DNA from: an uncultured Flavobacteriaceae bacterium
GTDB taxonomy: Bacteria > Bacteroidota > Bacteroidia > Flavobacteriales > Flavobacteriaceae
Assembly: GCA_947504035.1 (NCBI GenBank)
Contig: CANNGA010000018.1
Span: 1 to 64,000, forward strand
Reading direction: 5' to 3'
Length of the DNA: 64,000 nucleotides
Numbering within the stretch: position 1 is the first letter of the stretch; each line of letters begins with the position of its first letter. Position numbers and translations under genes: made by a program. Below the pieces are notes generated by a model. It did not search any database. It was not told the origin of the DNA and worked only from the letters and a program-made list of their open reading frames with translations. Of this stretch, positions 12,643-47,314 are shown one piece after another.

Positions 12643-12647
12643 GCGCG

Positions 12648-13100: not shown

Positions 13101-13109
13101 GGTTTAAAA

Positions 13110-13949: not shown

Positions 13950-13952
13950 AAA

Positions 13953-15416: not shown

Positions 15417-15447
15417 TGTTTAACAAATATAATTAATTGTTAAACAA
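15416..15447 (-). promoter_or_regulatory. Tandem palindromic operator over the crtI promoter
   Basis: Two copies of TTGTT-N-AACAA, at 15416-15426 (TTGTTTAACAA) and 15437-15447 (TTGTTAAACAA), have centres 21 bases apart, about two helical turns. The first copy reaches the crtI ATG; the second sits in the promoter spacer. This layout suits cooperative binding by a tetrameric MerR/CarH repressor. Confidence 0.65.
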
Positions 15448-15454
15448 AATAAAA
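15424..15454 (-). promoter_or_regulatory. crtI promoter
   Basis: On the minus strand TATATTTG (15431-15424) is an exact -7 element, with a 19-base spacer from TTTT (15454-15451), one mismatch from the -33 TTTG. The predicted start of transcription is within a few bases of the ATG at 15416. Both operator copies lie within or next to this promoter. Confidence 0.6.
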
Positions 15455-15460
15455 TGAATT

Positions 15461-16363: not shown

Positions 16364-16384
16364 CAAATTCTGTTTTTTCTTAAA

Positions 16385-16416
16385 CAAAAATACACATTAC
16401 AAAGCAGAATACCATA
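16385..16416 (-). promoter_or_regulatory. Putative carH promoter with operator half-site
   Basis: TATTTTTG (16392-16385, minus) with TATG (16416-16413) 20 bases upstream approximates the consensus. The TTGTTTAAG that begins inside the -7 element (16387-16379) resembles the TTGTTTAACAA operator at crtI, suggesting autoregulation. Confidence 0.4.
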
Positions 16417-19514: not shown

Positions 19515-19595
19515 TTGTCTTGATTAAAAGAGAAGAGTAATACTCTGCTTTTATGAGTCCAATTTGTTCGTTTAGAATCTATTAATATAAGTAAG

Positions 19596-19628
19596 AAAGC
19601 CGTCATTTTAAAATGATGGCTTTTTTTC
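19596..19628 (+). terminator. Intrinsic terminator
   Basis: AAAGCCGTCATTTT (19596-19609) pairs with AAAATGATGGCTTT (19610-19623), apart from one G-U, and a T-run follows. It ends the FKBP lipoprotein transcript. Confidence 0.8.
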
Positions 19629-20142
19629 TATGTTAGAGTTCATAGAACGGTTTAAAAAAATCTCCAAGTTTAACTCTTGAAGCATGGCTACTGCGCTTTA
19701 GGTAAAGAGTTTGTTTTGTTTAAAAAAACAAAGCATTTGAGTTTTGAATATACCTTTTATTTAAACACAAAATGTTAATTTTCTTAAGTCTAAAAAACAT
19801 TTGCATTAGTTTCCTATAGAGGTTTAAAGACCTAAAAAAAAATAGGATTAGTTGCCAATTTATATTATTTTGACCCTAAAATGTAACATATTACATAAAG
19901 ACGAGACTTATTGTTGTTGACAGTAATGTAATCTATCGTATTTTAGAAATGTTAAAATAAATGTAGGACTTATGTTTGTACTATTGATGCCTATTCTTTT
20001 ACTATTGATCTATTTTTCTTGAATTTAAAAGCTTATAATAGTAATATTGAAATCCGAAAAATCTTTATTGTTTCTGATTACTAAACAAAGGTAAAAGTTG
20101 TATTAAAATTAAGTTTAACTCTCAACTCTCATAATTTTATAT
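19629..20142. other. Long upstream region of the response regulator, no gene seen
   Basis: About 510 AT-rich bases. The only open frame is a 16-residue hydrophobic run near 19971-20021, too short to support. Several poly-A and poly-T runs are present and no clear promoter match was found. The length suggests a regulated promoter or a small RNA that I cannot identify. Confidence 0.4.
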
Positions 20143-20823
20143 ATGTATAATGATTTATGTAAAGTTTTATTAATTGATGATCATCCATTAATAACTAGTG
20201 CTTATGCCTTGGCCTTTAACAAATTATCTAAAGAAAAAAAAGAGCTTGAATTTGAAATAGATGTGGCAAGAGATTGTGACTCTGCAATGGAGAAAATAAG
20301 AAATTCTCAACAAGATCGTAATTATGATTTTGTTTTTTTAGATGTGAAATTACCACCTTCTAAAAATAGAGAGTTTTTAAGTGGAGAAGATATAGGCGTT
20401 TTTCTTAAAAAAAATTTCAAAAAAACTAAGATTGTAATTTCTACATCTGTTAATGATAACTACATGGTCAGTTCTATTCTTAAAAAAATAGACCCAGAGG
20501 CATTTTTAATTAAAACAGATGCTACAATTGAAGTGTTGTTAGAATGTGTTGATACGATTTTATTAGACCCTCCTTATTATAGTAAATCTGTTATAAAATT
20601 ATTTAGAAAGCAGTCGGCAAATAATCTTGTTATAGATGATATTGACCGTCAAATTTTATATGAGTTATCAAATGGTACTAAAATGAGTGAATTACCCAAT
20701 ATATTGCCGTTATCTATGGCTGCTCTTGAAAGAAGAAAACGCATGCTAAAAGAGATGTTTAATGTGAATTCAAGAGGAGATAGAGAGTTGTTAAAAAAAG
20801 CACATGAAAAAGGTGTGATTTAG
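20143..20823 (+). CDS. Response regulator with C-terminal HTH
   Basis: A 226-residue protein. The receiver domain spans residues 7-140: acidic pair D12/D13, phosphoacceptor D67 in FVFLDVKLPP, the S/T position in VISTS, and Lys near 124 in FLIKTD. Residues about 160-215 form a helix-turn-helix of the NarL/LuxR kind, though divergent (IDDIDRQILYELSNGTKMSELPNILPLSMAALERRKRML). It probably receives phosphate from a histidine kinase that is not in this window. It stands 189 bases upstream of the secretion/pilus locus on the same strand, so it may regulate that locus. Confidence 0.82.
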   Translation: MYNDLCKVLLIDDHPLITSAYALAFNKLSKEKKELEFEIDVARDCDSAMEKIRNSQQDRNYDFVFLDVKLPPSKNREFLSGEDIGVFLKKNFKKTKIVISTSVNDNYMVSSILKKIDPEAFLIKTDATIEVLLECVDTILLDPPYYSKSVIKLFRKQSANNLVIDDIDRQILYELSNGTKMSELPNILPLSMAALERRKRMLKEMFNVNSRGDRELLKKAHEKGVI

Positions 20824-21011
20824 TTGTGGTATGTTTAAATGACTTTAGTTTGAATGTTTTTAATTAGAAAGTGTTAGAGATTTGTTAACTAAGGTAAATA
20901 CCATCAAAATAGAGGGCATTACCCTAATATCGTTGTGGGAGTATTGCATATTTTTGAAATGTATTAATTTTATTTCTACAATTAAAAACGCTCTCACAAG
21001 TATTGAATTAT

Positions 21012-22244
21012 ATGAATTTAAAAAGTGCTTCTCTTATAAATGCAATTTTTGTTTGCTTGATGGTGTCTATAATTTCAAGTGGTCTAATCTCAATATCATA
21101 TTATCATAAAATGTTTGAGAATAAATTGGAATCGTTAGAAGCTCACATCAACAGGAATGAGTCAGCCTTGAATTATTATTTAAATAATAAAGAATTAGTT
21201 AATTCTGAGGGAGGTATTCATGAATTTGATCTTTTTGATGACGGTATAGTATCTCATGTTAAAAAAAAAAGTTGGGGGTTTTATGATGTTGTAACTTGTA
21301 AAACAGAGCATAAAACAGATTCTATTAGAAAAACGGTTCTAGTAGGTTATGGAAATAATAAAAGTAAACAATTAGCACTTTATCTAACAGATTATGATAA
21401 AGCTTTAAAATTATCAGGAGCAACCCAAATTACAGGGACTATGTTTGTGCCTAACGGAAGAACAGAACTTGCTTATATAAATGGAAATAAAGGAAACTCT
21501 GTTGTATTAAAAGGATCGCAAAAAGAATCAAAAAATAGGCTTCCCAAATTAGATAAGGATGTGTCTATAGAGGTGGAAAGGTATCCGTTTTTAACTATTA
21601 ATGCCCTTAAAGAAAAGGCCGATTTAGTTAATGCTTTTGATGCACCAACTAAAGTTCTTGATTTTAGAGGTATTGAACATGTTAAAGATGTATCTTTTAA
21701 AGGGAATTTTATACTTTATTCCAATTCAGCGTTAAGTATTAATGCTTCAGCTGTATTAGAAGATATTATTGTAAAAGCACCTGTTGTTAATATTGCTGCA
21801 GGATTTAAAGGAACGGTACAAATTATTGCAGACACACAGGTTGTTGTAGAAGAGAATGTCGTGCTGCGTTACCCTTCAAGTATTTATATTAAAAATGATG
21901 AAGAAGATGTATCTGTCGTGTTAAATGGTAATAGTAAGGTTTTGGGAGGGATTGTAATACATGGAAATACTTATAACAATTCGTTACAAAGACAATTAAC
22001 TATAAGTAAAGACGCTATGTTAATAGGGGATATATATTGCTACGGGCGTTTGCAATTAGACGGAAGTGTTTTGGGAAGTGTCTACACAGATCGTTTTACT
22101 TTAAAAACAAAATCATCGTCTTATGAAAATACGATTTTAAATGGGAAAATAGATAATAGTAAGTTACCAGCCTTTTTTGTAAGGCTACCTTTATTTAACA
22201 GAGCAATAGATAAAAGTGCATATGAAGTTATTAAAACATTTTAA
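21012..22244 (+). CDS. Pseudopilin-like or GspK/PilX-position membrane protein with beta-solenoid tail
   Basis: A 410-residue protein from ATG 21012; a TTG 9 bases upstream is possible. One N-terminal membrane segment (about residues 5-25: SASLINAIFVCLMVSIISSGL) sits where a pilin helix would be, but the Glu5 of classical pilins is missing. A coiled section follows. The C-terminal half shows a repeating pattern (VVLNGNSKVLGGIVIHGNT, LIGDIYCYGRLQLDGSVLGSVYTD) like a bactofilin or other beta-solenoid. It is the first gene of the locus and overlaps the next pseudopilin by 23 bases. By position it may be the tip pseudopilin (GspK/PilX role). That is inference. Confidence 0.6.
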   Translation: MNLKSASLINAIFVCLMVSIISSGLISISYYHKMFENKLESLEAHINRNESALNYYLNNKELVNSEGGIHEFDLFDDGIVSHVKKKSWGFYDVVTCKTEHKTDSIRKTVLVGYGNNKSKQLALYLTDYDKALKLSGATQITGTMFVPNGRTELAYINGNKGNSVVLKGSQKESKNRLPKLDKDVSIEVERYPFLTINALKEKADLVNAFDAPTKVLDFRGIEHVKDVSFKGNFILYSNSALSINASAVLEDIIVKAPVVNIAAGFKGTVQIIADTQVVVEENVVLRYPSSIYIKNDEEDVSVVLNGNSKVLGGIVIHGNTYNNSLQRQLTISKDAMLIGDIYCYGRLQLDGSVLGSVYTDRFTLKTKSSSYENTILNGKIDNSKLPAFFVRLPLFNRAIDKSAYEVIKTF

Positions 22245-22578
22245 AAGCTTAAAGGCATCATCTATTGTAGAATCTGTAATAGCAATAGCAATTATTTCTA
22301 TTTGTGTCTTAATAGCTTTTATGGTTTATATAAATATTAGTAAACAAAAAACACCGTTAAATTATTATAAGGCAAAACACCATATAGAGGTTTTAATACA
22401 TGATATAGAACACCAAAAAGATTATGAAAATGATATATTTACTTATAGAGGCTACACCATAGCTAAAACCGTAGATGTAGATGCTAAAGAAGGTATTGCA
22501 AGAGTATTGTTTTTAATCACGATTGGTGGACATAAAGTATATGAAATTATTAAGGTAATACCTTATAAAGAAAGCTAA
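22222..22578 (+). CDS. Minor pseudopilin (GspI/PilV-like)
   Basis: A 118-residue protein from ATG 22222; a GTG two codons upstream is the alternative. A short basic leader (MKLLKHFKSLKA) precedes SSIVESVIAIAIISI, with Glu at +5 after the predicted cleavage A/S. That is the class III signal of type IV pilins and pseudopilins processed by prepilin peptidase. The globular part is small. It overlaps its upstream neighbour by 23 bases and shares one base with the next gene, so translation is coupled. Confidence 0.75.
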   Translation: MKLLKHFKSLKASSIVESVIAIAIISICVLIAFMVYINISKQKTPLNYYKAKHHIEVLIHDIEHQKDYENDIFTYRGYTIAKTVDVDAKEGIARVLFLITIGGHKVYEIIKVIPYKES

Positions 22579-23048
22579 TGTATATAAAAAGTTTTACGAT
22601 ATTAGAAGCTTTAATAAGTTTAATCCTAATGGGAATAATAATCTCATTAACATATAGTGTGTTTAATTTGGTAGAGCGGCAAATGTATATGTTTAAAAAT
22701 GAAAATGGTACTGTGTTGCAATACAACCTTTTTAATACAACATTAAAACAAGACATATACAAGGCAGCCGATTTTGAGGTAAGCGAGAAAGGGGTGCTAT
22801 TAAAACCCTATAACGGTGTAAATGTGAGTTATGAAATTTTAAAACCTTATGTTCTTAGGACGCAAGAACAACAAATAGATACGTTTGAAATTAAAACATT
22901 AAGTCATTCTTTTTTTCAAGCAGAACGGCTAACCTTAATATCTGAAAAATTGCAATTAGGTATAGCGCTATTAGGAGATACTATTCCCGCAGTATATTAT
23001 TTAAATAGAGATAACGCAAATCTTGTAAATAGCCATTTCTTAAAATGA
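22578..23048 (+). CDS. Minor pseudopilin (GspJ/PilW-like)
   Basis: A 156-residue protein. The very short leader MYIKS precedes FTILEALISLILMGIII: Phe at +1 and Glu at +5, a textbook prepilin site. A 100-residue globular domain follows. Its length and position after the GspI-like gene fit the GspJ role. It overlaps gspF by 4 bases. The start is set by TAATG, where the previous stop and this ATG share a base. Confidence 0.78.
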   Translation: MYIKSFTILEALISLILMGIIISLTYSVFNLVERQMYMFKNENGTVLQYNLFNTTLKQDIYKAADFEVSEKGVLLKPYNGVNVSYEILKPYVLRTQEQQIDTFEIKTLSHSFFQAERLTLISEKLQLGIALLGDTIPAVYYLNRDNANLVNSHFLK

Positions 23049-24169
23049 AGATAGGAACAACGGCACATACAGTAAGGCAACAAAAAAAGAAAAAAGTATT
23101 TGAAGGTTTTAATATGCCTATATCTTTTTTTAAACGCTTTTCGGATAAGCAAAAAGAAGATTTCTATAGAGAATTTTCAACATTGATAAAATCGGGTGTG
23201 GATTTTAATCAAGCTTTAGAAATATTAACATCTCAACAAAAATCAGATTTTATTAAGACAATATATAAAGCTATAAATACGGATGTGGTACGGGGAAAAT
23301 CTTTATACCAAGCAATAAAAGATCATAAATATTTTTCGCCTTACGAATACCATAGTATCAAAATAGGAGAAGATACGAGGCGTTTACCAGATATTTTTGA
23401 TGAGCTTAAAACTTTCTTTTCACGAAAGATTAAAATGAAACGACAAATAGTGTCTGTACTAGCTTATCCAATATTTGTTCTAATTATAACATTTGCCGTT
23501 CTTTATTTTATGTTAAATTTCGTGGTACCAATGTTCGCATCTGTATTTCAGCAATTTGGGAAAGATTTGCCAGAGATCACCCAATTTGTAGTTAATGTAT
23601 CTAATAACTTCAATGTTATTTTAGTTGTAGCACTGGGTGTTGTTTTATCCATTTTTGTAGGCCATAAATTACTTAAAGACACTATTAAGTACAAGAGTAT
23701 AACCTCAAATATGTTACTTAAACTCCCTTATTTTGGGAGCCTGGTTAAAAAAATCTATTTAGCGCGATTTTGTCAGTCGTTTGGATTGCTACTTTCAGCT
23801 AAAACGCCCTTAATAGATGCGATAGAATTAACAGAGAAAATGATTTCGTTTTATCCTCTAAAGAATGCACTGTCATTAACTAGAAAAGATATTTTAAAAG
23901 GAGAAACTTTTGCAGATAGTTTGAAAAAACACGCTTTTTTTACGCCTAAATTAATTTCGTTAACGGCAATAGGAGAGCAAATTAATGAGTTAGGTCCCAT
24001 GTATGACGGATTAGCAAATCAATATAACGAAGAAGTAGAACACTCAACCAAAATGATAGGAACTATTTTAGAGCCAATAATGATTGTGTTGATAGGAGGT
24101 ATTGTTGGCTTTATTATGATAGCGATGTATTCTCCAATATTTAATTTAAGTAAAGTAATTCAAAATTAA
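23045..24169 (+). CDS. gspF: Inner-membrane platform protein GspF/PilC
   Basis: A 374-residue protein. Two GspF repeats are visible: residues about 30-155 (FYREFSTLIKSGVDFNQALEIL) and about 240-360 (ARFCQSFGLLLSAKTPLIDAIEL). Each has the family's F..L..L...G. pattern and each ends near membrane helices (about 135-160, 190-210, 345-365). GspF/PilC is the membrane hub that couples ATPase motion to pseudopilus assembly. It is somewhat shorter than the usual 400 residues at the N-terminus. No fusion is seen. Confidence 0.9.
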   Translation: MKIGTTAHTVRQQKKKKVFEGFNMPISFFKRFSDKQKEDFYREFSTLIKSGVDFNQALEILTSQQKSDFIKTIYKAINTDVVRGKSLYQAIKDHKYFSPYEYHSIKIGEDTRRLPDIFDELKTFFSRKIKMKRQIVSVLAYPIFVLIITFAVLYFMLNFVVPMFASVFQQFGKDLPEITQFVVNVSNNFNVILVVALGVVLSIFVGHKLLKDTIKYKSITSNMLLKLPYFGSLVKKIYLARFCQSFGLLLSAKTPLIDAIELTEKMISFYPLKNALSLTRKDILKGETFADSLKKHAFFTPKLISLTAIGEQINELGPMYDGLANQYNEEVEHSTKMIGTILEPIMIVLIGGIVGFIMIAMYSPIFNLSKVIQN

Positions 24170-24184
24170 TTTCAAATAGTAATT

Positions 24185-24622
24185 ATGATGAAAATGAAAA
24201 AGCAGCTGTTAAAGCTTAGAAATAAACAATTGCAGTTAAAAGCCTATTCCATGTCAGAGATTCTTATAGTGCTCTGTATAATAGGTATTTTGATTTATTT
24301 AGTTGTACCCAATCAAACTTCTGTGGTAACGAGTGCTAAGTCTATAGAAGCTCAGAATATGTTAAGTATGATTCATGGTTTAGAAAAAAGTCATTTTTAT
24401 AGACACTCGAAGTACACTTCAGATTTCAATGAATTGGGATTTGAAGAAGCTTTAACAATAGATAAAGGTGGGCAAGCAGTGTATAAAATAGAGATCACCG
24501 AGGCATCTTTAAATGCTTTTAAAGCAACGGCAACAGCATTACAAGATTTTGATGGAGATGGTATTTATAACACATGGGAAATAGACCAAGATCGAAAGCT
24601 TAAAGAGATTGTTAAAGACTAA
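24185..24622 (+). CDS. Major pseudopilin (GspG/PilE-like) with a Ca-type loop
   Basis: A 145-residue protein. The basic 20-residue leader ends in KA, cleaved before YSMSEILIVLCIIGILIYLVVP, with Glu at +5. The globular tail ends with DFDGDGIYNTWEIDQD, a DxDGDG loop like those that bind calcium. Major pseudopilins of type II systems also have a C-terminal calcium site, but of different sequence, so this could be a convergent solution. It is preceded by its own small gap (15 bases) and followed by the peptidase gene 2 bases later. Confidence 0.78.
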   Translation: MMKMKKQLLKLRNKQLQLKAYSMSEILIVLCIIGILIYLVVPNQTSVVTSAKSIEAQNMLSMIHGLEKSHFYRHSKYTSDFNELGFEEALTIDKGGQAVYKIEITEASLNAFKATATALQDFDGDGIYNTWEIDQDRKLKEIVKD

Positions 24623-24624
24623 AT

Positions 24625-25107
24625 ATGGAGCTAATTTTGGTTTATAGTGTTTTAGTAATTTTGCTATGTTTTGTTTTGTTTTACGATGTAAAACAACGTA
24701 GCATACATGCTATCTTACCTGTTCTGATTTTTATAACCAGTGTATCAATTAATATCTTTTCAGAAGACTTACTATCTATTTATATCGTTTATAATTTGGG
24801 GTTTTTAAGTCTTAATATCATTGGTTTATGGCTTTATTTTTCTGTAAAAAAAGGTAAACTATCCAACCCTATTGATAAAGAGATAGGGTTGGGAGATATT
24901 TTAATGTTTGTAGCTATAACACCATTGTATAATTTAAAAACATTTGCTTTAATTTTTAGTAGTGGCTTGGTATTTTCTCTGGTTCTGTATTTTATTGTAA
25001 CTCTATTTAAACAGATTGAAACGATCCCTTTAGCTGGATATTTAGCTCTGTTTTTAGTGTTAATCATTCTCATAGAATCTATTTTTAATATTAAAATAGC
25101 AGTTTAA
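24625..25107 (+). CDS. Prepilin peptidase (A24 family, no methylase domain)
   Basis: A 160-residue membrane protein with about five helices. The two catalytic aspartates of type IV prepilin peptidases are visible: D21 in FYDVKQR and D91 in GLGD (the GxGD motif). The methyltransferase region and its cysteines, found in PilD/GspO, are absent, as in TadV/CpaA-type enzymes. It should cleave the class III leaders of the pseudopilins in this locus. It shares one base with the start of gspE. Confidence 0.82.
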   Translation: MELILVYSVLVILLCFVLFYDVKQRSIHAILPVLIFITSVSINIFSEDLLSIYIVYNLGFLSLNIIGLWLYFSVKKGKLSNPIDKEIGLGDILMFVAITPLYNLKTFALIFSSGLVFSLVLYFIVTLFKQIETIPLAGYLALFLVLIILIESIFNIKIAV

Positions 25108-26513
25108 TGAATTTAGAAAAAACGGAATCTATAACGCTAGAAGTAGCGCTGCAACAGGCTATAAGTCCAGAAATAGCACATCATTTTCTTATTATACCTA
25201 AGGCGATTTCTGAAACGACTCATACTTATTATATAGACGAGGAAAAGGAGACTGAATTAGATAGTATAGCTGAAGAGTTAGAGTTGCTTTTTAATAAAAG
25301 AATCGTATTTGAAAAAAAAGCCTCATCAGTAGTACGAACGGCTTTATCTATGTACTATAGAAGACATAATGATGCGCCAAGGCAAGTTCATTATGAAAAC
25401 GATTTTTTAGAAAACTTAATTTTTGAAGCCAAAGATATTAATGCTAGTGATATTCATATCGAAATATACGAAGATGATGTTAGAGTGCGGTTAAGAATTG
25501 ATGGCCAGCTTATAGAAAAGAATAACATAAAAAAAGACAATTATTTAGAATTAATTAATCAAATAAAAATTAAATCTAATCTAGATATTACAGAAAAAAG
25601 GTTGCCTCAAGATGGACGAATCGAATATGATGATTTCGATATAAGGGTTTCTATCTTACCAACCCACCATGGTGAAAAAGTAGTCATGCGTATTCTTGGG
25701 AGAGATGCTTCTCATTTAGATATTTACCAGTTAGGTCTAGAAGACGAAGCATTATACTTGTATTTAGAAGCGGTTAAAAAAACCAATGGTATTATTCTTA
25801 TTAGTGGTCCTACTGGATCCGGTAAGACCACAACACTATATGGAACGTTAAAACATTTAAATAATATTAATACCAATATTGTTACTGTAGAAGATCCCAT
25901 AGAATACACGTTAAAAGGGATTAATCAGGTTCAACTAAAAGAAAATATTGGACTCACATTTACGGCAGCATTGCGTTCTTTTTTACGTCAAGACCCAGAT
26001 ATTATTATGCTTGGAGAAATAAGGGATGCGCAGACAGCTCAAATGGCCATTAGAGCATCATTAACAGGGCATTTAGTGCTTTCAACCATTCATACAAATT
26101 CAGCTATTGGTACGATTTCTAGATTAGTAGATATGGGCGTGCCTTCATTTCTTATTGCAGAAACTATAAACATATCTGTAGCGCAGCGTCTTGTGAGAAC
26201 CTTATGTTCACATTGTAAAAAAGAAGTAGATTTTAATACCAAAGATTTGCCCATAGCTTTTAAACCTTCTAAAGAAGTCTTAAAGCATTTTGTACCTGTA
26301 GGTTGCGATGCATGTTATTATACGGGGTATAAAGGAAGACGCGCGATCTATGAAATTTTACCCATAACGCTAGAAGTTACAGAGGCAATAAAAACAAATA
26401 CATTGGAACACTCCGATATTATGAAAAATAAAAAATTATCAGATAAAGCATTTGCTTTGTTGTGTGAAGGAAAAACATCTTTAGATGAAATTTATGGAAT
26501 ACTCATCAACTAA
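25107..26513 (+). CDS. gspE: Assembly ATPase GspE/PilB
   Basis: A 468-residue protein. The N-terminal domain (1-100) is short. Walker A GPTGSGKTTTLYG is near residues 232-244, the Asp box precedes VEDPIEY, Walker B IIMLGEIRD is near 297-305, and the His box LTGHLVLSTIHTN follows. A tetracysteine zinc motif is present (CSHC about 366, CDAC about 399). It powers pseudopilus extension by hydrolysing ATP at the inner face. The motif set matches GspE/PilB rather than the retraction ATPase PilT, of which no copy is seen here. Confidence 0.93.
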   Translation: MNLEKTESITLEVALQQAISPEIAHHFLIIPKAISETTHTYYIDEEKETELDSIAEELELLFNKRIVFEKKASSVVRTALSMYYRRHNDAPRQVHYENDFLENLIFEAKDINASDIHIEIYEDDVRVRLRIDGQLIEKNNIKKDNYLELINQIKIKSNLDITEKRLPQDGRIEYDDFDIRVSILPTHHGEKVVMRILGRDASHLDIYQLGLEDEALYLYLEAVKKTNGIILISGPTGSGKTTTLYGTLKHLNNINTNIVTVEDPIEYTLKGINQVQLKENIGLTFTAALRSFLRQDPDIIMLGEIRDAQTAQMAIRASLTGHLVLSTIHTNSAIGTISRLVDMGVPSFLIAETINISVAQRLVRTLCSHCKKEVDFNTKDLPIAFKPSKEVLKHFVPVGCDACYYTGYKGRRAIYEILPITLEVTEAIKTNTLEHSDIMKNKKLSDKAFALLCEGKTSLDEIYGILIN

Positions 26514-26517
26514 GAAT

Positions 26518-28455
26518 ATGATACGTAAAATAATAACGGTACTATTATTATGTGTTGCTTCTAAGGGAGTGGCGCAAATAGATATCAATAATTTTGAAGA
26601 AGAATTAGACCAATTGGCCGTAAGTAAAAAAGGCTTAAAAGAGAATATTAGAATAGATCTAAGTGGTTTAACATTATACGACTTTATTAATACTCTAGCC
26701 GAAGAACATCAGCTTAATGTAAGTGTTGATTCTAGATTGAACCAACTTGTTACAAGCAACTTTTTTGATGTAACGGTTAAAGACGTATTTCTATTTTTAA
26801 TTAAAAAGCACAATTTAAAGGTGGACGTATCTAATAACATTCTCATGTTTGATAAAAAACCAGAAGCAATTATTATAGAAAAGCCTAAACCTTTAAAAAA
26901 AATAGATGTATCCTATAATGCGCAGAATAAGTTTTTATCATTAAAATTAAAGAATGATTCATTGCCTCGCGTATCTCAAGCCATAACAGATGCTTCGGGT
27001 AAAAACATCATTTTAGCACCTAATATTAAAGATCAAAAGGTGTCTGCATATATTTTAAATAGACCTATTGACCAGGTGTTAGAGATGATGGCAAAGTCGA
27101 ATAACTTGGTTTTGATTAAAGACGAAAATGATAATTATTTTTTAGAAAAAGATTTAGAGTCTATAGAAAACCAAAATGCCAAAGCAAAATCTCAAAATAC
27201 GAGAACACGACGCGCTTATTCTGGCGCTGTTAAAAAGGATAAAACGCAACAATTCACAGAAGGTTTAAATATAGAGGTTGATTCACATGGTTATTTAGAA
27301 ATAAGTGCTTTTGAGGTTGATGCCAATACATTAATTACGAAAGCAGCTGAAAAATTAGGAGTTAATTTTTTTATGTACAATACTCCAGATGGGGTAACAA
27401 CAACTTTGGTTGCAAATGGTATTGGTTTTGATGATTTATTAAGTCATTTATTTAAGGGAACAAACTATACTTACAAAAAAGTAGACAATTTATATCTTAT
27501 AGGGGGGCATGAAACAGAAGGCTTAAGAACAACAGAGTTGATTCAGTTAGAAAACAGAACCATAGAAACGGTACTACAGTCTTTGCCATCATCATTAACG
27601 CAATCTGTTGAGGTAAAGGAGTTTATAGAGCTTAATGGATTTGTCGTTACGGGGTCTAAAGCTCATATACAGGAATTTAAAGATTATATCTACGAAATAG
27701 ATCGAGTAGTTCCAGTAATTCAAATAGAAGTGTTGATCGTACAATATCAAAAATCCTATAATATTCAAACAGGGTTACAAGCGGGAATAGATAATGAAAA
27801 TAGACCTCCAACATCGGGTGTCTTATTCCCTTCACCAGAAGTGAATTTAAACGCGAATTCTGTAAATAGTTTAATAGATGCTTTTAATGGTTTGGGATTC
27901 ATTAATTTAGGGAAGGTTACCGAGCAATTCTATTTAAATTTAAGTGCTTTAGAAAATAATTCACTCATAAAACTGTCTTCTACACCAAAATTAGTTACAC
28001 TTAATGGACATGAAGCTTCATCTAGTATTGGAGAAACAAATTACTATTTTGAGCAGAATAATAGACTGATTAATTCGGGCATTGGAAACGATATTTTACA
28101 ATCGGGTGTATGGAAACCTACAGAAGCGAATTTAGGTATAAGCATACGACCATTTGTGTCTAAAGATGAAAATGTAACTTTAACTATTTCGGTAGAAAAA
28201 AGTGCATTCTTGGGTAGGGCAGGAGAAAATGCACCTCCTGGAAAAACCACTCAAAAATTTGAATCGATGATTAGCGTTCGAAATAATGAAATGATATTAT
28301 TAGGCGGACTTGATGAAGTGGAAAACGAGAATTCGGGAACAGGTACTCCTTTACTTTCTAGACTACCTATTATTAAATGGTTTTTTAGTGGGCGAACTAA
28401 ACGAAAAGAAAAATCGAAACTACATATATTTATAAAACCAACGGTAACCTATTAA
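26518..28455 (+). CDS. Secretin GspD/PilQ
   Basis: A 645-residue protein from ATG 26518, 4 bases after gspE. An in-frame start 33 bases upstream is inside gspE and would bury the signal peptide. Signal peptide residues 1-20 (cut after GVAQ). Two or three N domains, including STN/N-type sections near residues 40-100 and 135-185. Then the secretin core (VEVKEFIELNGFVVTGSKAHIQEF, SSTPKLVTLNGHEASSSIGE, ISVRNNEMILLGGL). It forms the outer-membrane gate of the system. No lipobox or pilotin-binding S domain is evident. Confidence 0.9.
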   Translation: MIRKIITVLLLCVASKGVAQIDINNFEEELDQLAVSKKGLKENIRIDLSGLTLYDFINTLAEEHQLNVSVDSRLNQLVTSNFFDVTVKDVFLFLIKKHNLKVDVSNNILMFDKKPEAIIIEKPKPLKKIDVSYNAQNKFLSLKLKNDSLPRVSQAITDASGKNIILAPNIKDQKVSAYILNRPIDQVLEMMAKSNNLVLIKDENDNYFLEKDLESIENQNAKAKSQNTRTRRAYSGAVKKDKTQQFTEGLNIEVDSHGYLEISAFEVDANTLITKAAEKLGVNFFMYNTPDGVTTTLVANGIGFDDLLSHLFKGTNYTYKKVDNLYLIGGHETEGLRTTELIQLENRTIETVLQSLPSSLTQSVEVKEFIELNGFVVTGSKAHIQEFKDYIYEIDRVVPVIQIEVLIVQYQKSYNIQTGLQAGIDNENRPPTSGVLFPSPEVNLNANSVNSLIDAFNGLGFINLGKVTEQFYLNLSALENNSLIKLSSTPKLVTLNGHEASSSIGETNYYFEQNNRLINSGIGNDILQSGVWKPTEANLGISIRPFVSKDENVTLTISVEKSAFLGRAGENAPPGKTTQKFESMISVRNNEMILLGGLDEVENENSGTGTPLLSRLPIIKWFFSGRTKRKEKSKLHIFIKPTVTY

Positions 28456-29637
28456 ATGGTAAAACACATAAAAAAACTATATAATCATTTTTGTAGATAT
28501 TATGTGCTGTCTTTAAGCACTAAAGGCGATCGTACAAGCTATCATTTAGCGGTGGTTTTATTTCGAGAAAATGAATTTTTAATTGAAGAACAATGGAGTA
28601 CAGTTATTTTAGAAGAGCTCATAGAGTACGCCACTAAAGAGTACCCTTTAATTGTACATATAGAGGGAGATAATATTATTAATAAATCTGTAGAGAACAG
28701 GGCAGGGTATAGAAAAAACTTAATATTTAAAGCGGCTATAGACGATTTTTACTTTTATGAATATAAGCAAGATGATGTTGTATATGTGTCTGTCGCAAGA
28801 AAAGCGTTTATAGACACACATCTAAAGCGATTAGGAGATTTAAATACATACATCGTAAATGTAAGTTATGGCCCTTTTGTAATGGCTAATCTATTATTCG
28901 CACTAAAAGGTACAGCTAAAATAGCATCTTCTAATTATTGTTTAGATGTTGAAAAATCTAAAATTATAGCTTTTAAAAAACATGAAGAGTCAGCTGTAAA
29001 TTATACCATTAATGATGATAATTTTAGTCAAAAAGAAGTGCCTTTAGTAGCGGCATTTTTTAATTACAAGTTACCGATTGAAGCTATAGAATTTGATACT
29101 GATTTTCTACGTACGAATCGAGAAGAATTTAAGTTTAAACGGTGGTTTAAAATAGCGGGAATAAGTGCATTGGTGTTTCTGTTATTAAGTATTGTGACGA
29201 GTAACGTATTGTTAGATGTTTATCTTAATGCTTTGTCTAAAAAAGAAACGACTTATCTTATGTTTCAACAAACATCAGCAAAAGTGAAAGCTTTAAAAGA
29301 AGAAAAAGCTTTAAAAGAAAAGATTTTGAAAACAAGTGGCATGGTGAGTCACAATTTTATTGCTAGGTATATGGTAGATATAGGAAATTCTATACCTCAA
29401 GGTATTGCTTTAAAAGCCATAGATGTCAATCCTTTATTGAAAAAAATTAAACCCAAAACTAGTGTAGGTTTTACTTTTAATACGATTAAAGTTAGAGGAA
29501 CAACCCACAGAGATGGTGTTTTTAACGCTTGGATTAAAAATATAAAAACGTTGTCATGGGTAAGACACATCGAAATTATAGCCTACGACCAAGAATATAA
29601 AAGTATGAATACATTTGAAATAGAAATATACATTTAA
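28456..29637 (+). CDS. GspL / PilM-PilN-like assembly protein
   Basis: A 393-residue protein. Residues 1-225 form a cytoplasmic domain with the actin-like/GspL position and length. A transmembrane helix lies at about 232-252 (FKIAGISALVFLLLSIVTSNVLLDVY), followed by a coiled coil (about 258-300) and a small C-terminal domain of ferredoxin-like pattern (KVRGTTHRDGVFNAWIKNIKTLSWVRHIEII). This order corresponds to PilM joined to PilN, as in GspL. It would connect the ATPase to the periplasmic parts. The similarity to either family is weak by eye. Confidence 0.7.
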   Translation: MVKHIKKLYNHFCRYYVLSLSTKGDRTSYHLAVVLFRENEFLIEEQWSTVILEELIEYATKEYPLIVHIEGDNIINKSVENRAGYRKNLIFKAAIDDFYFYEYKQDDVVYVSVARKAFIDTHLKRLGDLNTYIVNVSYGPFVMANLLFALKGTAKIASSNYCLDVEKSKIIAFKKHEESAVNYTINDDNFSQKEVPLVAAFFNYKLPIEAIEFDTDFLRTNREEFKFKRWFKIAGISALVFLLLSIVTSNVLLDVYLNALSKKETTYLMFQQTSAKVKALKEEKALKEKILKTSGMVSHNFIARYMVDIGNSIPQGIALKAIDVNPLLKKIKPKTSVGFTFNTIKVRGTTHRDGVFNAWIKNIKTLSWVRHIEIIAYDQEYKSMNTFEIEIYI

Positions 29638-30165
29638 GTGTTAGATAATTTAACATATAAGAAAAAGTTTTTTGCAGTATTAATAGGTTTTGTATTGCTC
29701 TTTTTAGCATGTTACAAAAAGACCTATAAGCATATGTTTGCGGCGAAGAAACAGCTTAACCAAGTCTCACAAAAATTGAATATCGTAGATAATTCTCATG
29801 TAGAATTGGCAAGTCTAAACCAAGAGATAAAAGGTATAAATAACGCAATAGGAGGGCAAACTAAAGTACCAGAAGATGTGGCGCAGGAACTGTTAGATTT
29901 TATATCGAAAACAGCATTGAATATAGACATTGTAGCAATAGAAGATGTACATATAGCGACCAGTGACGAATTTTTGGTATATACAAACCAAGTTACGCTA
30001 CAAGGTGATTATGAAATCCTTTTAAAATTATTGTATCGAATTGAGTTAAAGTTTAAAAACTCGAGGATTATGAATTCTCAATTTTATACTAAAAAAAATT
30101 ACAGAACAAATAAGAATATATTATACCTAAAAATAATTTTGCAGAATTATGAGAAATCTAAATAG
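29638..30165 (+). CDS. PilO/GspM-like inner-membrane protein
   Basis: A 175-residue protein starting with GTG directly after the previous stop. One membrane helix (residues about 11-26), a coiled coil (about 35-75), then a small alpha-beta domain (DIVAIEDVHIATSDEFLVYTNQVTLQGDYEILLKLLYRIELKF). This is the PilO/GspM architecture, and its place right after the PilN-like gene supports the call. It overlaps the next gene by 17 bases. Confidence 0.7.
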   Translation: MLDNLTYKKKFFAVLIGFVLLFLACYKKTYKHMFAAKKQLNQVSQKLNIVDNSHVELASLNQEIKGINNAIGGQTKVPEDVAQELLDFISKTALNIDIVAIEDVHIATSDEFLVYTNQVTLQGDYEILLKLLYRIELKFKNSRIMNSQFYTKKNYRTNKNILYLKIILQNYEKSK

Positions 30166-31114
30166 AATAGTAGTATTAATGTTTCTAACACTATTATTGA
30201 CTTGTGACGATATTTTAGAAGAAGACATTAGAAACGTTACAGTTGAAACTTTTGCCCCTGTAAATAATGCCATAATAGAAGGTAATGTTGTACAATTTTC
30301 ATGGAACCGTATTGATGGTGCAGATAATTACAGGTTACAAATATTGACTAGCGATCAGCGTATTGTACTAGATTCATTAGTACCAGCATTAACTATTGAT
30401 ATTCCTTTAGAAGAGGGCGAATATCAATGGCGATTAAGAGCAGAAAATTTTGCGTATACATCGCCTTATGCTTTTCCTACGAATTTTACACTTTCAGCGT
30501 CTCAGGATCTTAGTAATCAGATGGTTATTTTAAGAAGCCCAGAGGATAATGTTTACAGGAATGTTCCAATTACAACATTTAGTTGGAATGCTATTTCTAC
30601 AGCTAATGATTATAGTTTTGAGCTGGTTAGAAGAAATGACTCGGGAGAATCTGTAATTTTTGGTCCAGAGACACTAACAGATATTAGTATTAATGTAGAG
30701 GACGCTATCGTGGATGAAGATGCGGAATATATATGGCGTGTTATGGCTTTTAATAGAACATCAAATACAAATACAGAGATTACTGAATATTCTTTTTTTA
30801 TTGATACCGAAATACCTAACCTCCCTGTGTTAATAGCTCCAGAAGATATGGTATCTATACAGCAGTCTGTGCAAACCTTCGAGTGGAGTAATAGTGAAGA
30901 TACAGGTAATGTGATGTCTCCAGTAACACTTATTTTTGAGATCTCTAAAGATTCTAATTTTGAAGTATTAGAGGAGACATTAATGACAACGAGCGAGTCT
31001 GTTGAGTATGAGTTTACAGAGGAGGGAACTTATTATTGGCGAGTGCGTGTAAGAGATGCAGCCGGTAACGAAAATGGGAATAGCGTTAGTCGAACTTTAA
31101 ATATTATAAATTAG
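30149..31114 (+). CDS. Lipoprotein with three fibronectin-III-like domains
   Basis: A 321-residue protein. The signal peptide ends LLTC, giving an acylated Cys at residue 19. Three repeats of about 95 residues follow, each with the hallmark sequence of FN3-like folds near its end (YQWRLRAENFAY, YIWRVMAFNRTS, YYWRVRVRDAAG). A lipoprotein inside this operon, just before a PilP-like gene, could be a pilotin or surface part of the machine. Its domains suggest extended contacts rather than enzyme activity. It overlaps both neighbours by 17 bases and 1 base. Confidence 0.72.
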   Translation: MRNLNRIVVLMFLTLLLTCDDILEEDIRNVTVETFAPVNNAIIEGNVVQFSWNRIDGADNYRLQILTSDQRIVLDSLVPALTIDIPLEEGEYQWRLRAENFAYTSPYAFPTNFTLSASQDLSNQMVILRSPEDNVYRNVPITTFSWNAISTANDYSFELVRRNDSGESVIFGPETLTDISINVEDAIVDEDAEYIWRVMAFNRTSNTNTEITEYSFFIDTEIPNLPVLIAPEDMVSIQQSVQTFEWSNSEDTGNVMSPVTLIFEISKDSNFEVLEETLMTTSESVEYEFTEEGTYYWRVRVRDAAGNENGNSVSRTLNIIN

Positions 31115-31602
31115 TGAACAAACGATATTTAAATGGATTATTGTTAGCATTTCTATTACTTATATGGGGAGGTGTCATCTATAAGTTTTTCGGTAAGGCA
31201 AAACACAATACGGCAGTAAATACAGTGTCTAATGTTGTTGCTCATCATAAACCTAAGTATACAGCTAATAGAGATACATTCAAGCTTGATATTAAAAATA
31301 AAAATCCATTTAAGACCTCGAGGTATTATGTGGAAACAAATAAAAATACGCCTCAGAAAAGTAAAAAGAGTGTAAAAAAGACAACAGCATTACCTATAAA
31401 GTGGCCTTCAATTACCTATCATGGTTTTGTAAAAAGTCCCAATAAATCTAAAATGTTGATTTTAGTAAAGGTAGATCAAAAGGTATACAGAAAAAGAGAA
31501 AAGGATGTTGTAAAAGATATAAAATTAGAAAAAGCATACAGCGATTCCTTGGTTGTATCCTTTCAAAAGAAGACTAAAACCGTAAAGAAGTACCATGAAT
31601 AA
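31114..31602 (+). CDS. PilP/GspC-like periplasmic connector
   Basis: A 162-residue protein with a GTG start sharing a base with the previous stop. One membrane helix (about residues 6-26), a Lys-rich linker, then a short beta domain (KWPSITYHGFVKSPNKSKMLILVKVDQKVYRKREKDVVKDIKLEKAYSDSLVVSF). The NPF motif followed by YxGFV and the conserved pattern of strands match the homology region of PilP and GspC, which binds the secretin. The resemblance is moderate but the position supports it. Confidence 0.65.
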   Translation: MNKRYLNGLLLAFLLLIWGGVIYKFFGKAKHNTAVNTVSNVVAHHKPKYTANRDTFKLDIKNKNPFKTSRYYVETNKNTPQKSKKSVKKTTALPIKWPSITYHGFVKSPNKSKMLILVKVDQKVYRKREKDVVKDIKLEKAYSDSLVVSFQKKTKTVKKYHE

Positions 31603-32104
31603 ATTCAATAAATTAACCATAGTAAATGCTGTAATAGTAGTATTACTCGTTACATATATCGTATTTCAAACGTTACAACCTAAACCTCAAACGACAGTAT
31701 ATGTAGATACTATTAAGTTATTCAATGGGTTTAATATGACAGCAGATATAAAGCGTATCGAAGAAGCGAAAATAAAAGCTAAAGTAAAAGTATTAGAAGA
31801 CTTGTATAAAACGTTCAATGCGTTATCTGATAAAGAAAAACAGTTGGATGTAAATAAAAATTTACAACAGCAAATAGCTTACAAGAGCAAAGATTTGCAA
31901 GAACTACAAGATGCACTAGTACAAAATTTGAATAAAAATGTATGGGGACGGCTAAATAGACATCTCAAGACTTATGCAGAAGCAAAAAAGTTGACGCTTA
32001 TTTTAGGTAAAACAAACACCGGTAATGTCATGTATGCCAAAGATGCCATAGATATTACAGATGCTGTTCTAGAGTATGCGAATAAAGTATATGAAGGCGA
32101 ATAA
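31595..32104 (+). CDS. OmpH/Skp-like membrane-anchored protein
   Basis: A 169-residue protein. An N-terminal hydrophobic segment (residues 8-24) is followed by VYVDTIKLFNGFNMT, then a long helical hairpin region, and the end LTLILGKTNTGNVMYAKDAIDITDAVLEYANKVY. That beginning and end are typical of OmpH/Skp chaperones, which hold unfolded outer-membrane proteins. As the last gene of the locus (8-base overlap with the PilP-like gene) it may help the secretin or a substrate cross the periplasm. That role is inference. Confidence 0.75.
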   Translation: MNKFNKLTIVNAVIVVLLVTYIVFQTLQPKPQTTVYVDTIKLFNGFNMTADIKRIEEAKIKAKVKVLEDLYKTFNALSDKEKQLDVNKNLQQQIAYKSKDLQELQDALVQNLNKNVWGRLNRHLKTYAEAKKLTLILGKTNTGNVMYAKDAIDITDAVLEYANKVYEGE

Positions 32105-32205: not shown

Positions 32206-32790
32206 ATGAATTATAAAAGGGGAGGAGTTATAATAGCAGTAGCTATACTTGTTATAATTATATTTTTATTTTACAAAAAGCGAGATGTCCCTCAATATAA
32301 AGTCTATGAATCTCCAAACGGCAATTGGAAGTCTTTAACAGTACGCAAGTATATCAATGATATTAATTATACGGCAACAGAAGTCCCTTTACAATATTAT
32401 TTATTGAAAAATAATACCAATGCTCCAGAAAAAGTAGCACTTTTAGCTAAAGAATTAGAACGTGAAAGAATTGTAGAAGTAGAATTTCAACATACTAATG
32501 GCGTAGATCTTTTACTTGACACATACACGAATCGCAGCTATGAAGCCTCTGTTAAATACATGGCATTTGGTATAGAGAAAGATTTTTCTGTGGTAACATC
32601 ATCTAATGACACCATAGCCTGTTCGGGAGTTAATTTCGAACGCAATTTTAAATTAGCCCCTTTTAAACGTATTCTATTATATTTTAATGGCATCGCGCCA
32701 GAAGATAAAATAAAACTTTTGTATGAAGATCGTTTATTTGGTAACGGTATAATGAAATTTAATTTTGGAACAGCGCCACTTAAATTATAG
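32206..32790 (+). CDS. Membrane-anchored protein, unknown function
   Basis: A 194-residue protein with an N-terminal membrane anchor (about residues 7-23) and a soluble part with no recognised motif. The stop codon lies inside the 3' end of the IS1380 fragment on the other strand (11-base overlap), so its natural C-terminus may have been altered by the insertion. It is separated from the secretion/pilus operon by about 100 bases and a hairpin, so it may not belong to it. Confidence 0.55.
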   Translation: MNYKRGGVIIAVAILVIIIFLFYKKRDVPQYKVYESPNGNWKSLTVRKYINDINYTATEVPLQYYLLKNNTNAPEKVALLAKELERERIVEVEFQHTNGVDLLLDTYTNRSYEASVKYMAFGIEKDFSVVTSSNDTIACSGVNFERNFKLAPFKRILLYFNGIAPEDKIKLLYEDRLFGNGIMKFNFGTAPLKL

Positions 32791-33388
32791 ACATTCTCGA
32801 TAATGTTTCATGTTGTAGGATACCTGCATGGCTATTGCCATTTCTATTCTCAACATATACAATATTGTTTCCTATAATGCCAACTCCTGGACAATAACCA
32901 TATTGCTTTAAATAAGTATTGTTGCTGTCCGCTTTATTATTGAAAACATAGGTGTTGTCATAATCAAGAGTTAACGGAGCTTTGCCTAAACCTTGAACTT
33001 TCATTAATATTTTTATGTTCAGTGCATTGATATGCTCATGAATACTTAATTGATGATCCCGCTTACCTCTTGGAGTTTTTATTGTAGTTTTTGGTAACGA
33101 CAGTTCTTTAAACCTATCCAATATTCTATCTGGGCTCGGAATTTGTAAGTATGGTATTCCTTCTAAGAATTTTTTTAGATTAGTAGCTATATCTTCAATA
33201 CAATCGCCTCCACAGAAGTAAATAGACCAAAAGGCATATAAAATATCCTTCCAACTGTATTTACATTGATTAGGTAATTTAGGTAAATTTTGTTCTAGCA
33301 ATTCACCTATTCCTTGTTGCTCAAATTCTTCTAGAACAAAGTTTAAGCCGCCAAATGGATTTACATGAGTAGAATTGATTATTTTCAT
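32780..33388 (-). pseudogene. IS1380-family transposase, N-terminal fragment
   Basis: 202 residues, against about 420-450 in complete IS1380 transposases. The start (NPFGGLNFVLEEFEQQGIGELLEQ) and the region LTLDYDNTYVFNNK, with the first catalytic Asp, and GYCPGVGIIGNNIVYVENRNGNSHAG fit the family. Homology stops at the end of the frame, and the second half with the remaining catalytic residues is not present downstream. It should be inactive. Confidence 0.7.
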
Positions 33389-33432
33389 AGCTGTGTTTTA
33401 TCGCAACACCAATTTAGGTGAAAACACAAAAA

Positions 33433-33467
33433 ACCGCAAACCCAATTATAACAAAGGTTTGCGGTTA
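33433..33467. repeat. 11-bp inverted repeat beside the IS1380 fragment
   Basis: AACCGCAAACC (33433-33443) and GGTTTGCGGTT (33457-33467) are perfect complements around 13 bases. It may be a terminator or part of the old element end. Confidence 0.5.
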
Positions 33468-33500
33468 CATCTTACTATTAACATACGGATTTAAGGTTAT

Positions 33501-33577
33501 AACTAGTGCTGTACTGAGTAAGTGTACAGGGAAAGAATAAAAATAAAAAGCTTTTACAGCAATGTAAAGGCTTTTTG
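33501..33577 (+). repeat. RAYT-associated REP-like repeat, copy 1
   Basis: It begins ACTAGTG, continues GTACTGAGTAAGTGTACAGG and ends in the hairpin AAAGCTTTTAC-AGCAAT-GTAAAGGCTTT (33547-33574). It lies directly in front of the tyrosine transposase gene. Three related copies follow downstream of that gene. Confidence 0.75.
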
Positions 33578-33589
33578 TATTTTGGTATC

Positions 33590-34147
33590 ATGAGTAGGAA
33601 GTACAAGTTTCATAACAAAGGCGGTTTATATTTTGTGAGTTTTGCTACTATAAATTGGATAGATGTATTTACAAGAGAAGTCTATTTTAATATATTGGTA
33701 GAAAGTATAAACTACTGTAGAAAAGAAAAAGGTATGGAATTATACTGTTATTGCTTTATGCCAAGTCATGTACATTTAATCTTTAGGTCAAGCATAGAAG
33801 AGCCATCAAGTTTACTAAGAGATTTTAAAAGTTATACAGCAAAGAAAGTCATAGAGACTATAGAGAACAATGCACAAGAGAGTAGAAAAGAATATTTACT
33901 TTGGTTTTTTGAGCGTGCAGCCAAAAAGAAGAGTAATGGCTCTAAATACCAATTCTGGCAGCATCACAATAAACCCATTGAATTATGGAGTGAAAAGGTG
34001 ATTAAACAAAAGATAGATTATATTCATAACAATCCAGTAGTGAGTGGTTTTGTAACCAATCCAATAGATTGGAAATACTCAAGTGCAAGAAACTATCAAG
34101 AAGATAATACGATTTTGGATATTGATAGTGTTGGGTTTTTCGATTAA
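33590..34147 (+). CDS. REP-associated tyrosine transposase (RAYT, Y1 family)
   Basis: A 185-residue protein from ATG 33590. A TTG 15 bases upstream lies inside the REP-like repeat. The HUH motif is H60-V-H62 in MPSHVHLIF. The catalytic Tyr is probably Y144 in KIDYIHNNPV, both standard for Y1 single-strand transposases of the IS200/RAYT kind. RAYTs are single-copy genes flanked by the palindromic repeats they are thought to mobilise, and here repeats occur on both sides. The length is within the family range and the frame is intact. Confidence 0.88.
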   Translation: MSRKYKFHNKGGLYFVSFATINWIDVFTREVYFNILVESINYCRKEKGMELYCYCFMPSHVHLIFRSSIEEPSSLLRDFKSYTAKKVIETIENNAQESRKEYLLWFFERAAKKKSNGSKYQFWQHHNKPIELWSEKVIKQKIDYIHNNPVVSGFVTNPIDWKYSSARNYQEDNTILDIDSVGFFD

Positions 34148-46258: not shown

Positions 46259-46553
46259 AAGTATTTTTGTTTAGTATTTAATCATTAACTTTTGTTAAGC
46301 GTAAAGAGATAAAGCGTGTTTAGAATAAAAACGTTCTATCTTATATTGAAGCTTAACTGTTAAAAATGTTTTAAAAAACCTCCCTTAGGGAAGAGGTACT
46401 ACATTTTTGTAATGAGTTGCTATTAAAAGAATTATTAAAGGTTAAAAGGAATTATTGTATTGCATAATGGGTGTGCTAGGTGTCATGTTTAAAATGAGAA
46501 TTATGATTTGAAAATTCGTTAAAATTAATCTTATTTCTATATTAAAAAACGTT
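46259..46553. other. Intergenic region between TPR and CHAT genes
   Basis: About 295 AT-rich bases on the same-strand path from the TPR protein gene to the CHAT gene. I see no ORF and no strong hairpin. A promoter for the CHAT gene could lie here, perhaps read by the linked sigma factor. Confidence 0.4.
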
Positions 46554-47309: not shown

Positions 47310-47314
47310 GCTAA

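Follow-up and report, generated by a model that had tools for sequence, protein, structure and literature searches.

What does a pilus-like secretion machine export in a flavobacterium? The question is raised by a locus of 13 open reading frames (ORFs) on the plus strand, positions 21003–32104 of the window (the whole stretch analysed, 64,000 nucleotides: positions 1 to 64,000 of contig CANNGA010000018.1, assembly GCA_947504035.1, from an uncultured member of the Flavobacteriaceae). An initial annotation had placed there a compact, one-strand locus resembling a type II secretion system (T2SS) or type IV pilus (T4P), with unknown cargo. The locus is real and correctly placed, and its genes overlap or lie a few bases apart in the ORF list; the boundary drawn for it stops short of the likely cargo genes. 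The cargo was indeed unsettled, and there is now a candidate. From gene distribution and neighbourhood, we consider it probable that the locus encodes a dedicated, T4P-derived exporter of giant Rhs/YD-repeat proteins whose C-terminal tips vary.

Association of the machine with Rhs giants

The domain DUF6443 served as marker for the giant Rhs/YD-repeat proteins. Profile searches for the assembly ATPase, DUF6443, ComEC, PilT and LolA3 were made in 149 genomes of the window's family (family sample); a genus sample held 12 genomes and a phylum sample 296. The loci of named relatives are the best 80 of 211, and counts of loci refer to the window plus these 80 relatives (81). Some named loci and numbered genomes overlap (L088/L150, L098/L156), so the samples are not independent.

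In the family sample the ATPase was found in 31/149 genomes, as was DUF6443 (30 over the curated cut-off). Both were present in 29 genomes, the ATPase alone in two (G057, G084), DUF6443 alone in two (G115, G130) and neither in 116 (Fisher P = 3e-26, relatedness ignored). G057 is counted as an exception, although its contig has giant pieces at both ends. The genus sample gave the same picture, with both in the same 8/12 genomes and neither in the other 4.

The genes are also close together. The linkage limit of 45 kb was set after the window's own distance of 40 kb was known, and second pieces of a single DUF6443 frame were omitted. On this basis a DUF6443 gene lay within the limit on the same contig for 25 of 33 ATPase copies, against 1.8 expected by random placement, and for 24 of the 33 it lay within 26 kb; for ComEC, used as a control in the same genomes, the corresponding count was 2/31. 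Two genomes (G148, G138) have two machines each, with a DUF6443 gene of its own near each machine.

For the phylum sample, in which up to five GspE candidates were scored per genome, identity bands were formed from ATPase places among the matches listed, DUF6443 places in genomes with no ATPase match being excluded. Where the ATPase had at least 53% identity, DUF6443 was present in 11/11 genomes and within 45 kb in 8/11 places; at 45–52% identity it was within 45 kb in 10/17 places, and for the PilB-like ATPases of 37–44% identity in 2/122. The association that we claim has this scope: where a closely related machine is found, Rhs cargo is present, and in the family sample Rhs cargo in turn comes with the machine.

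The giants and their cassette

Proteins of 1000–2100 amino acids (aa) adjoin the machine in many relatives. Giants were present in 51/80 named loci, and in 33/44 of those with full 10-kb flanks; for 18 of the 29/80 loci with no giant in the sequence examined, the flank on one side is clearly shorter than 10 kb. The large neighbours of the machine in the Crocinitomix loci L054 and L055 gave no match to the giant families.

Directly beyond the machine, the window has the gene of a conserved protein, x32 (32206–32790, plus strand), which in relatives lies next to giants of the gA type. Among 17 long gA-type giants, the gap to x32 was 4–38 bases in 10 (4–8 bases in loci L045, L049 and L053), 131 bases in one and 1.5–2.6 kb in five; the remaining one had neither x32 nor OmpH. 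In the window itself, about 22 kb of transposase remnants and unrelated genes (32791–55164) separate the block of machine, OmpH and x32 from the giant gA (2086 aa; 55165–61425, plus strand), which is homologous to giants beside relatives' loci and is a proposed cargo component. The cassette continues past the window's end (contig C18, 61430–75619) with the genes of gB (1124 aa), LolA3 (profile match at E = 1e-47) and a 3357-aa DUF6443/Rhs protein. The last of these matches DUF6443 (E = 2e-9), the YD repeat and, just below the cut-off, the Rhs core (E = 9e-7), and among solved structures it finds an Rhs family protein, Tse5 and Tre23 (E = 0.001–0.064). It is followed by a 155-aa ORF of no assigned family.

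The N-termini of the giants are, by eye, hydrophobic and signal-like. In the gC family of giants, the RHS repeat profile hits 13/13 aligned sequences, and the gA-type giant of relative L064 has a weak Rhs repeat match at its end. Over 91 pairs of 14 proteins (15 were found by the core motif), the median identity was 47% in the Rhs core versus 19% in the tails. The presence of OmpH follows the type of cargo cassette: the gene was found in 16/19 loci with gA-type giants, in 0/26 with gC-type giants only and in 8/35 in which no giant was detected. The initial annotation had listed OmpH as extra to the standard set.

Machine subtype and cargo type

Subtype I was defined by an ATPase of at least 61% identity; 'subtype II' denotes all those at 53–60% and is not one clade. 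LolA3 scored over the cut-off in 8/9 family genomes with subtype I versus 0/140 others, and DUF6443 frames of at least 2900 aa occurred in 6/8 subtype I genomes versus 1/22 of the rest (P = 3e-4, relatedness ignored; G148, which has both subtypes, omitted). In the genus sample, subtype I is present in 3 genomes, another ATPase in 5 and none in 4, and the long DUF6443 frames are in those with subtype I. The same division is seen within G148, where gA, gB and LolA3 share a contig with the subtype I machine and a long DUF6443 frame, while the contig of the other copy carries a giant of the gC type together with an Rhs protein that is shorter. Machine subtype thus goes with cargo type. LolA3 is unlikely to be a part of the machine, because the window's genome has two LolA3/DUF6443 cassettes but one machine ATPase.

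Subtype I ATPases form a single clade (17 rows, support 100/98) in a careful tree, from which six rows (L141–L146) and some of the subtype II rows, chosen at random, were omitted. Three of the six were long-branched in an earlier ATPase tree, and the careful tree carries a warning of long branches meeting. Twenty PilB-like rows separate with full support.

Carriage on plasmids

Machine and Rhs genes also travel together outside chromosomes. Persicobacter sp. JZB09, from another order (Cytophagales; L180, L181), has two plasmids, each with a complete machine and a differing Rhs cassette: the 40-kb plasmid holds the twelve machine genes along with OmpH, x32, a gA-type giant and an Rhs-core protein of 2421 aa, and the 110-kb plasmid holds the full twelve together with two gC/Rhs pairs. 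An 11-kb plasmid record of F. jumunjinense and a plasmid of Flavobacterium sp. N1861 have machine genes with Rhs pieces, and on one of these two the piece is named Rhs in the public annotation. In all, Rhs genes or pieces accompany the ATPase in 4/4 of the Bacteroidota plasmid records inspected (among the matches listed, which number 10; there are 547 further). In locus L147, integrase-like ORFs seen by eye lie downstream of the Rhs cassette (18476–19998), a possible sign of a mobile cassette end.

Genes of the machine

The first gene of the locus (21003–22244, starting from TTG at 21003 or ATG at 21012) had been annotated as a beta-solenoid membrane protein. A bactofilin match was obtained in 19/21 relatives (E up to 0.1). 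Because this bactofilin-like domain is joined to a pilin-like N-terminus, in which Glu5 is lacking, we prefer to regard the product as a minor pilin that bears a probable solenoid-type domain, and not as a membrane protein; it may form the tip, and by position and N-terminus it is GspK/PilX-like. Two further putative minor pilins follow, at 22216–22578 (ComGE-like, E = 0.017; Glu5 in 40/40 aligned) and 22578–23048 (ComGF-like, E = 6.5e-7), then the inner-membrane platform GspF/PilC at 23045–24169 (T2SSF, E = 4e-45) and the major pilin or pseudopilin at 24185–24622 (PilA_Myxo, E = 5e-9; GspG, E = 3e-5; ComP, weakly). Gly is the usual residue before a prepilin cleavage site. At this position the major pilins have Ala or Ser in 77/79 aligned sequences, and Gly occurs in 5/40, 1/40 and 9/40 members of the three minor pilin families. 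The predicted prepilin peptidase (24625–25107) combines a weak Peptidase_A24 match (E = 0.37) with a GxGD motif and has no methylase domain; its family, of median length 160 aa, has GxGD in 79/81 loci and CxxC in 0/81.

The assembly ATPase GspE/PilB (25107–26513; T2SSE, E = 1e-121, and trees) and the outer-membrane secretin (26485–28455; Secretin, E = 6e-32) come next. The GspL-like product of 28456–29637 appears to consist of a cytoplasmic domain, one transmembrane segment (by eye) and a PilN-like periplasmic domain. PilN matches were obtained in 8/20 relatives (E up to 0.1; best 7.9e-5); the N-terminal part matched no profile, and the search of solved structures gave this gene a chance-level match only. 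The next gene (29638–30165) is called PilO/GspM-like from its position and a single weak match to a PilO chain (E = 0.075), and a Pfam search gave it no support. The lipoprotein with FN3/Ig-like domains (30149–31114), in which Cys19 is invariant in 18 aligned sequences, had been regarded as an extra alongside OmpH; we take it instead as a machine part, because it occurs along with the PilP-like gene and about as often (41/81 and 42/81 loci). That gene, PilP/GspC-like (31114–31602), matched T2SSC in 3/20 relatives (best 7.6e-6); its matches to chains of PilP and GspC had E = 0.1–0.25. The last gene (31595–32104) encodes an OmpH/Skp-like chaperone (OmpH, E = 6e-13), membrane-anchored by eye. By profile, the identities of the ATPase, platform, secretin and OmpH are firm; those of the pilins, peptidase, GspL-like and PilP/GspC-like proteins are weaker. 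All genes named are on the plus strand.

The set expected of the type IV filament superfamily (ATPase, platform, major pilin, peptidase and secretin) is therefore complete, with the peptidase counted on its weak profile match and GxGD motif. The curated equivalog cut-offs of the classical T2SS were missed (GspE 455.9 of 630.25 bits, GspD 115.5 of 351.35, GspG 24 of 88.85), as were the curated equivalog or subfamily cut-offs of the type IVa pilus (PilB 454.3 of 675.65 bits, PilQ 119 of 284.35). As first annotated, there is a single ATPase and no PilT: one PF00437 match in the genome exceeds the cut-off, PilT exceeds its cut-off in 0/149 family genomes, and matches to the PilT profile at E up to 1e-20 are GspE genes only. 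These results support the view that retraction is unlikely and that the machine is of a secretion type.

Conservation of gene order had been set as a test of the locus. Twenty-one of the 35 loci with all twelve machine families have exactly the window's order, nine a two-block rearrangement (the genes from G to PP first, then the pilin/platform block) and five have the genes on two strands; the block G-O-E-D is on a single strand in 76/81 loci. The response regulator noted just upstream (20143–20823, plus strand; Response_reg, E = 4e-7) is a probable regulator of the locus; 16/81 loci have a related regulator immediately before their first machine gene.

Elsewhere in the window, the separating stretch begins with a transposase-associated fragment and an IS200-like transposase (32780–34147). 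By eye, it includes a large TPR/CHAT-like protein beside a sigma-factor-like gene and a membrane-anchored partner (43016–47893), and a lipoprotein resembling a GH10 xylanase (51148–52551). A carotenoid-type cluster with a MerR-like regulator, also recognized by eye, lies on the minus strand at 11497–16387.

Relation to known systems

The machine itself is already known; its dedicated Rhs cargo is newly proposed. The initial annotation called such systems poorly described in the Bacteroidetes, which is only partly right: the machine has been listed and studied (PMC5553014, PMC6668835), with no settled cargo. A putative T2SS of C. hutchinsonii (CHU_3191-3202) has been investigated by Wang et al., with equivalent genes Fjoh_0611-0622 in F. 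johnsoniae (PMC5553014). Its components are the same, and the window's order (minor pilins, F, G, O, E, D, C/L/M-like) agrees with the Fjoh_0611-0622 numbering, as compared by printed order, not by sequence. In the accessible text of that report a cellulose-related cargo is proposed, Rhs giants are not mentioned, and the solenoid pilin and FN3 lipoprotein are not assigned. By its description, the Bacteroidetes 'T2SS' of Denise et al. (2019) is the same system; it was reported to cluster with type IVa pili and perhaps to be a novel protein secretion system, and the text available proposes no cargo (PMC6668835).

A 35-kb island of F. psychrophilum clonal complex CC-ST10 resembles our locus in having T2S genes (there in two opposed blocks), OmpH and two proteins with ABC-toxin-like domains, and a dedicated translocation role was suggested for it (PMC5808330). 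The portion of that report available concerns one clonal complex of one species and holds no co-occurrence or subtype test. Bacteroidetes Rhs toxins have also been tabulated under 'T2SS', defined there as T2SS/Sec-dependent with a signal peptide (PMC3482391). LolA3 corresponds to Fjoh_0605, which by locus number is six away from where the machine genes start; F. johnsoniae with lolA3 deleted still glided and secreted amylase as before, and the accessible text states no link to the machine (PMC11885536). The available parts of three further reports (PMC12487129, PMC13104615, PMC5524665) contain nothing on a machine–Rhs link. No general link of this kind was stated in the literature found, most subscription journals being outside its scope.

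With the classical T2SS and type IVa pili the machine shares the ATPase, platform, secretin, pilins, GspL-like topology (by eye) and a PilP/GspC-like protein. It differs in having no PilT and no methylase-type CxxC, in its FN3 lipoprotein and solenoid pilin, and in the Ala or Ser, rather than Gly, that precedes the cleavage site of its major pilins. Type IVa pili have separate PilM and PilN; here one gene has a PilN-like end and, by eye, one transmembrane segment, and its N-terminal part may or may not correspond to PilM. With Rhs polymorphic toxins the giants share YD repeats, the Rhs core and unalignable tails, and the succession of a giant ending in a YD repeat and an Rhs-core protein is one that we take to resemble the BC components of Tc toxins. 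In contrast to both, the giants would leave by Sec and pilus-like export if our proposal is right.

Weighing the alternatives

Several observations weigh against a dedicated exporter of Rhs giants. Some concern machines that have no such cargo in view: G084 has a full machine and neither DUF6443 in its genome nor a giant in the 20 kb examined; 6/16 phylum genomes with an ATPase of 45–52% identity have no DUF6443 (among the matches listed); and 11/44 full-flank loci have no giant, including the two Flavivirga loci nearest to the window. Others concern giants with no machine. DUF6443 occurs in G115 and G130 in the absence of a related ATPase, and in the phylum sample 32/53 DUF6443 genomes have no GspE match of at least 45% identity, among them all 5 of family f2, 14 from the class's other families and 3 of the window's own family. 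The window's own genome has a second LolA3/DUF6443 cassette (contig C6, 183784–185789) with no machine adjoining. The remaining points concern the proteins. The window's gA gave no Rhs match in profile scans and only thrombospondin-type repeats in the solved-structure search; gB carries an Ig_7 domain, CHU_C-associated according to Pfam, and in one gC giant an SprB repeat scored below threshold, both of which, we presume, hint at proteins of the type IX secretion system (T9SS). A whole, folded Rhs shell may well not pass through a secretin; that would be in keeping with export ahead of folding and with chaperones being needed.

Two known systems were considered as routes for the giants. As for the T9SS, no sorting domain was found in the giants scanned (the L049 protein being cut by the locus end), though gB has its Ig_7 domain, and the giants were rejected as its substrates. 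The type VI secretion system, whose TssC (PF17541) is encoded in the window's own genome, could serve Rhs proteins there, which likewise tells against a dedicated pilus-like route. TssC is present in 7/30 ATPase-bearing family genomes, the window's among them (G057 not included), and its absence from 23/30 makes this system unlikely as the giants' route. Among 23 DUF6443 genomes that lack the ATPase, it was found in 4/5 of family f2, 2/5 of the window's own family and 0/13 of the class's other families (G331, with a sub-threshold DUF6443, not included). Rhs giants can thus exit cells by other routes, because there are DUF6443 genomes with no related ATPase and some of these have TssC.

The best surviving alternative, which we regard as unlikely and which is compatible with export of giants, is that the machine secretes enzymes and outer-membrane proteins generally, in the manner of a T2SS, and that Rhs giants are one cargo among many. 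In C. hutchinsonii, T2S-D, -F and -G mutants are impaired in cellulose use, and their cellulose-bound outer-membrane proteins are missing or weakened (PMC5553014); these defects suggest another or broader cargo, to the benefit of this alternative and against a dedicated one. The distribution of the machine argues otherwise, as 118/149 family genomes do without it and its presence tracks DUF6443 closely. Moreover, the T9SS is the usual export route in this group.

Somewhat less probable still is that machine and Rhs cassettes are separate accessory modules which hitch-hike in shared hot spots and plasmids, the machine exporting something else. The transposase remnants at 32780–34147, the integrase-like ORFs downstream (by eye), the carriage on plasmids and the occurrence of Rhs cassettes where there is no machine are all consistent with this. 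It does not readily account for a near one-to-one occurrence in 149 genomes, for linkage that persists through differing gene arrangements and into other classes of the phylum, for the matching of subtypes, or for the 4–38 bases between x32 and giant in 10/17 long gA-type giants.

We think it improbable that the locus makes a static adhesive pseudopilus. The lack of PilT, the solenoid-type pilin and an FN3 lipoprotein that could be surface-exposed would suit such a structure, but it leaves the linkage to giants, OmpH and LolA3 unexplained, and the C. hutchinsonii mutant defects are secretion-like (PMC5553014).

Least probable of all, and very much so, is a competence pilus for DNA uptake, which the distribution and linkage of ComEC, the only uptake gene examined, do not support: ComEC is near-universal where the locus is missing (31/31 genomes with the ATPase, a slight excess, versus 104/118 without it, 12 of the 14 family genomes that lack ComEC being of at most 2.4 Mb), it is not linked to DUF6443 genes, and PilT is absent. 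In its favour, ComGE and ComGF are the best matches of the minor pilins, the major pilin has its weak ComP match, and pilus-like homologues of F. johnsoniae may suffice for T4P-type DNA uptake (PMC7965970). Yet a single test of F. johnsoniae, which holds the system according to PMC5553014, found it not to be transformable (PMC7965970), and a screen in Riemerella, where presence of the locus is not established, names in its accessible text no pilus machine gene as essential, one essential protein being predicted fimbrial (PMC8459023). The initial annotation had named competence pili as an assignment that would speak against it; with ComEC as the gene examined, no link to competence was found.

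A proposed route of export

On the interpretation that we favour, dedicated export of Rhs giants, Sec would carry the giants into the periplasm, where the OmpH/Skp-like protein, joined in subtype I by LolA3, would keep them exportable. The PilP/GspC-like protein, as recruiter, and the GspL/PilO-like parts would couple them to the secretin, and the ATPase would drive a short pseudopilus, with the solenoid pilin at its tip, that pushes them out one way through the secretin. Once outside, the variable tip may act on neighbouring cells, or the giant may stay on the surface. A wider proposal, to which we give an even chance, is that this is a dedicated weapon exporter of the Bacteroidota, apart from the classical T2SS: machine subtype, periplasmic helpers (OmpH, x32, LolA3) and an Rhs cocoon in two parts would evolve together and be exchanged as a unit that spreads on plasmids and islands.

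Dedicated export of Rhs giants would answer two questions for a phylum in which many surface proteins use the T9SS: what the Bacteroidota 'T2SS' carries, and by which route many of the Sec-type Rhs giants leave the cell. LolA3 might gain a role in the same way.

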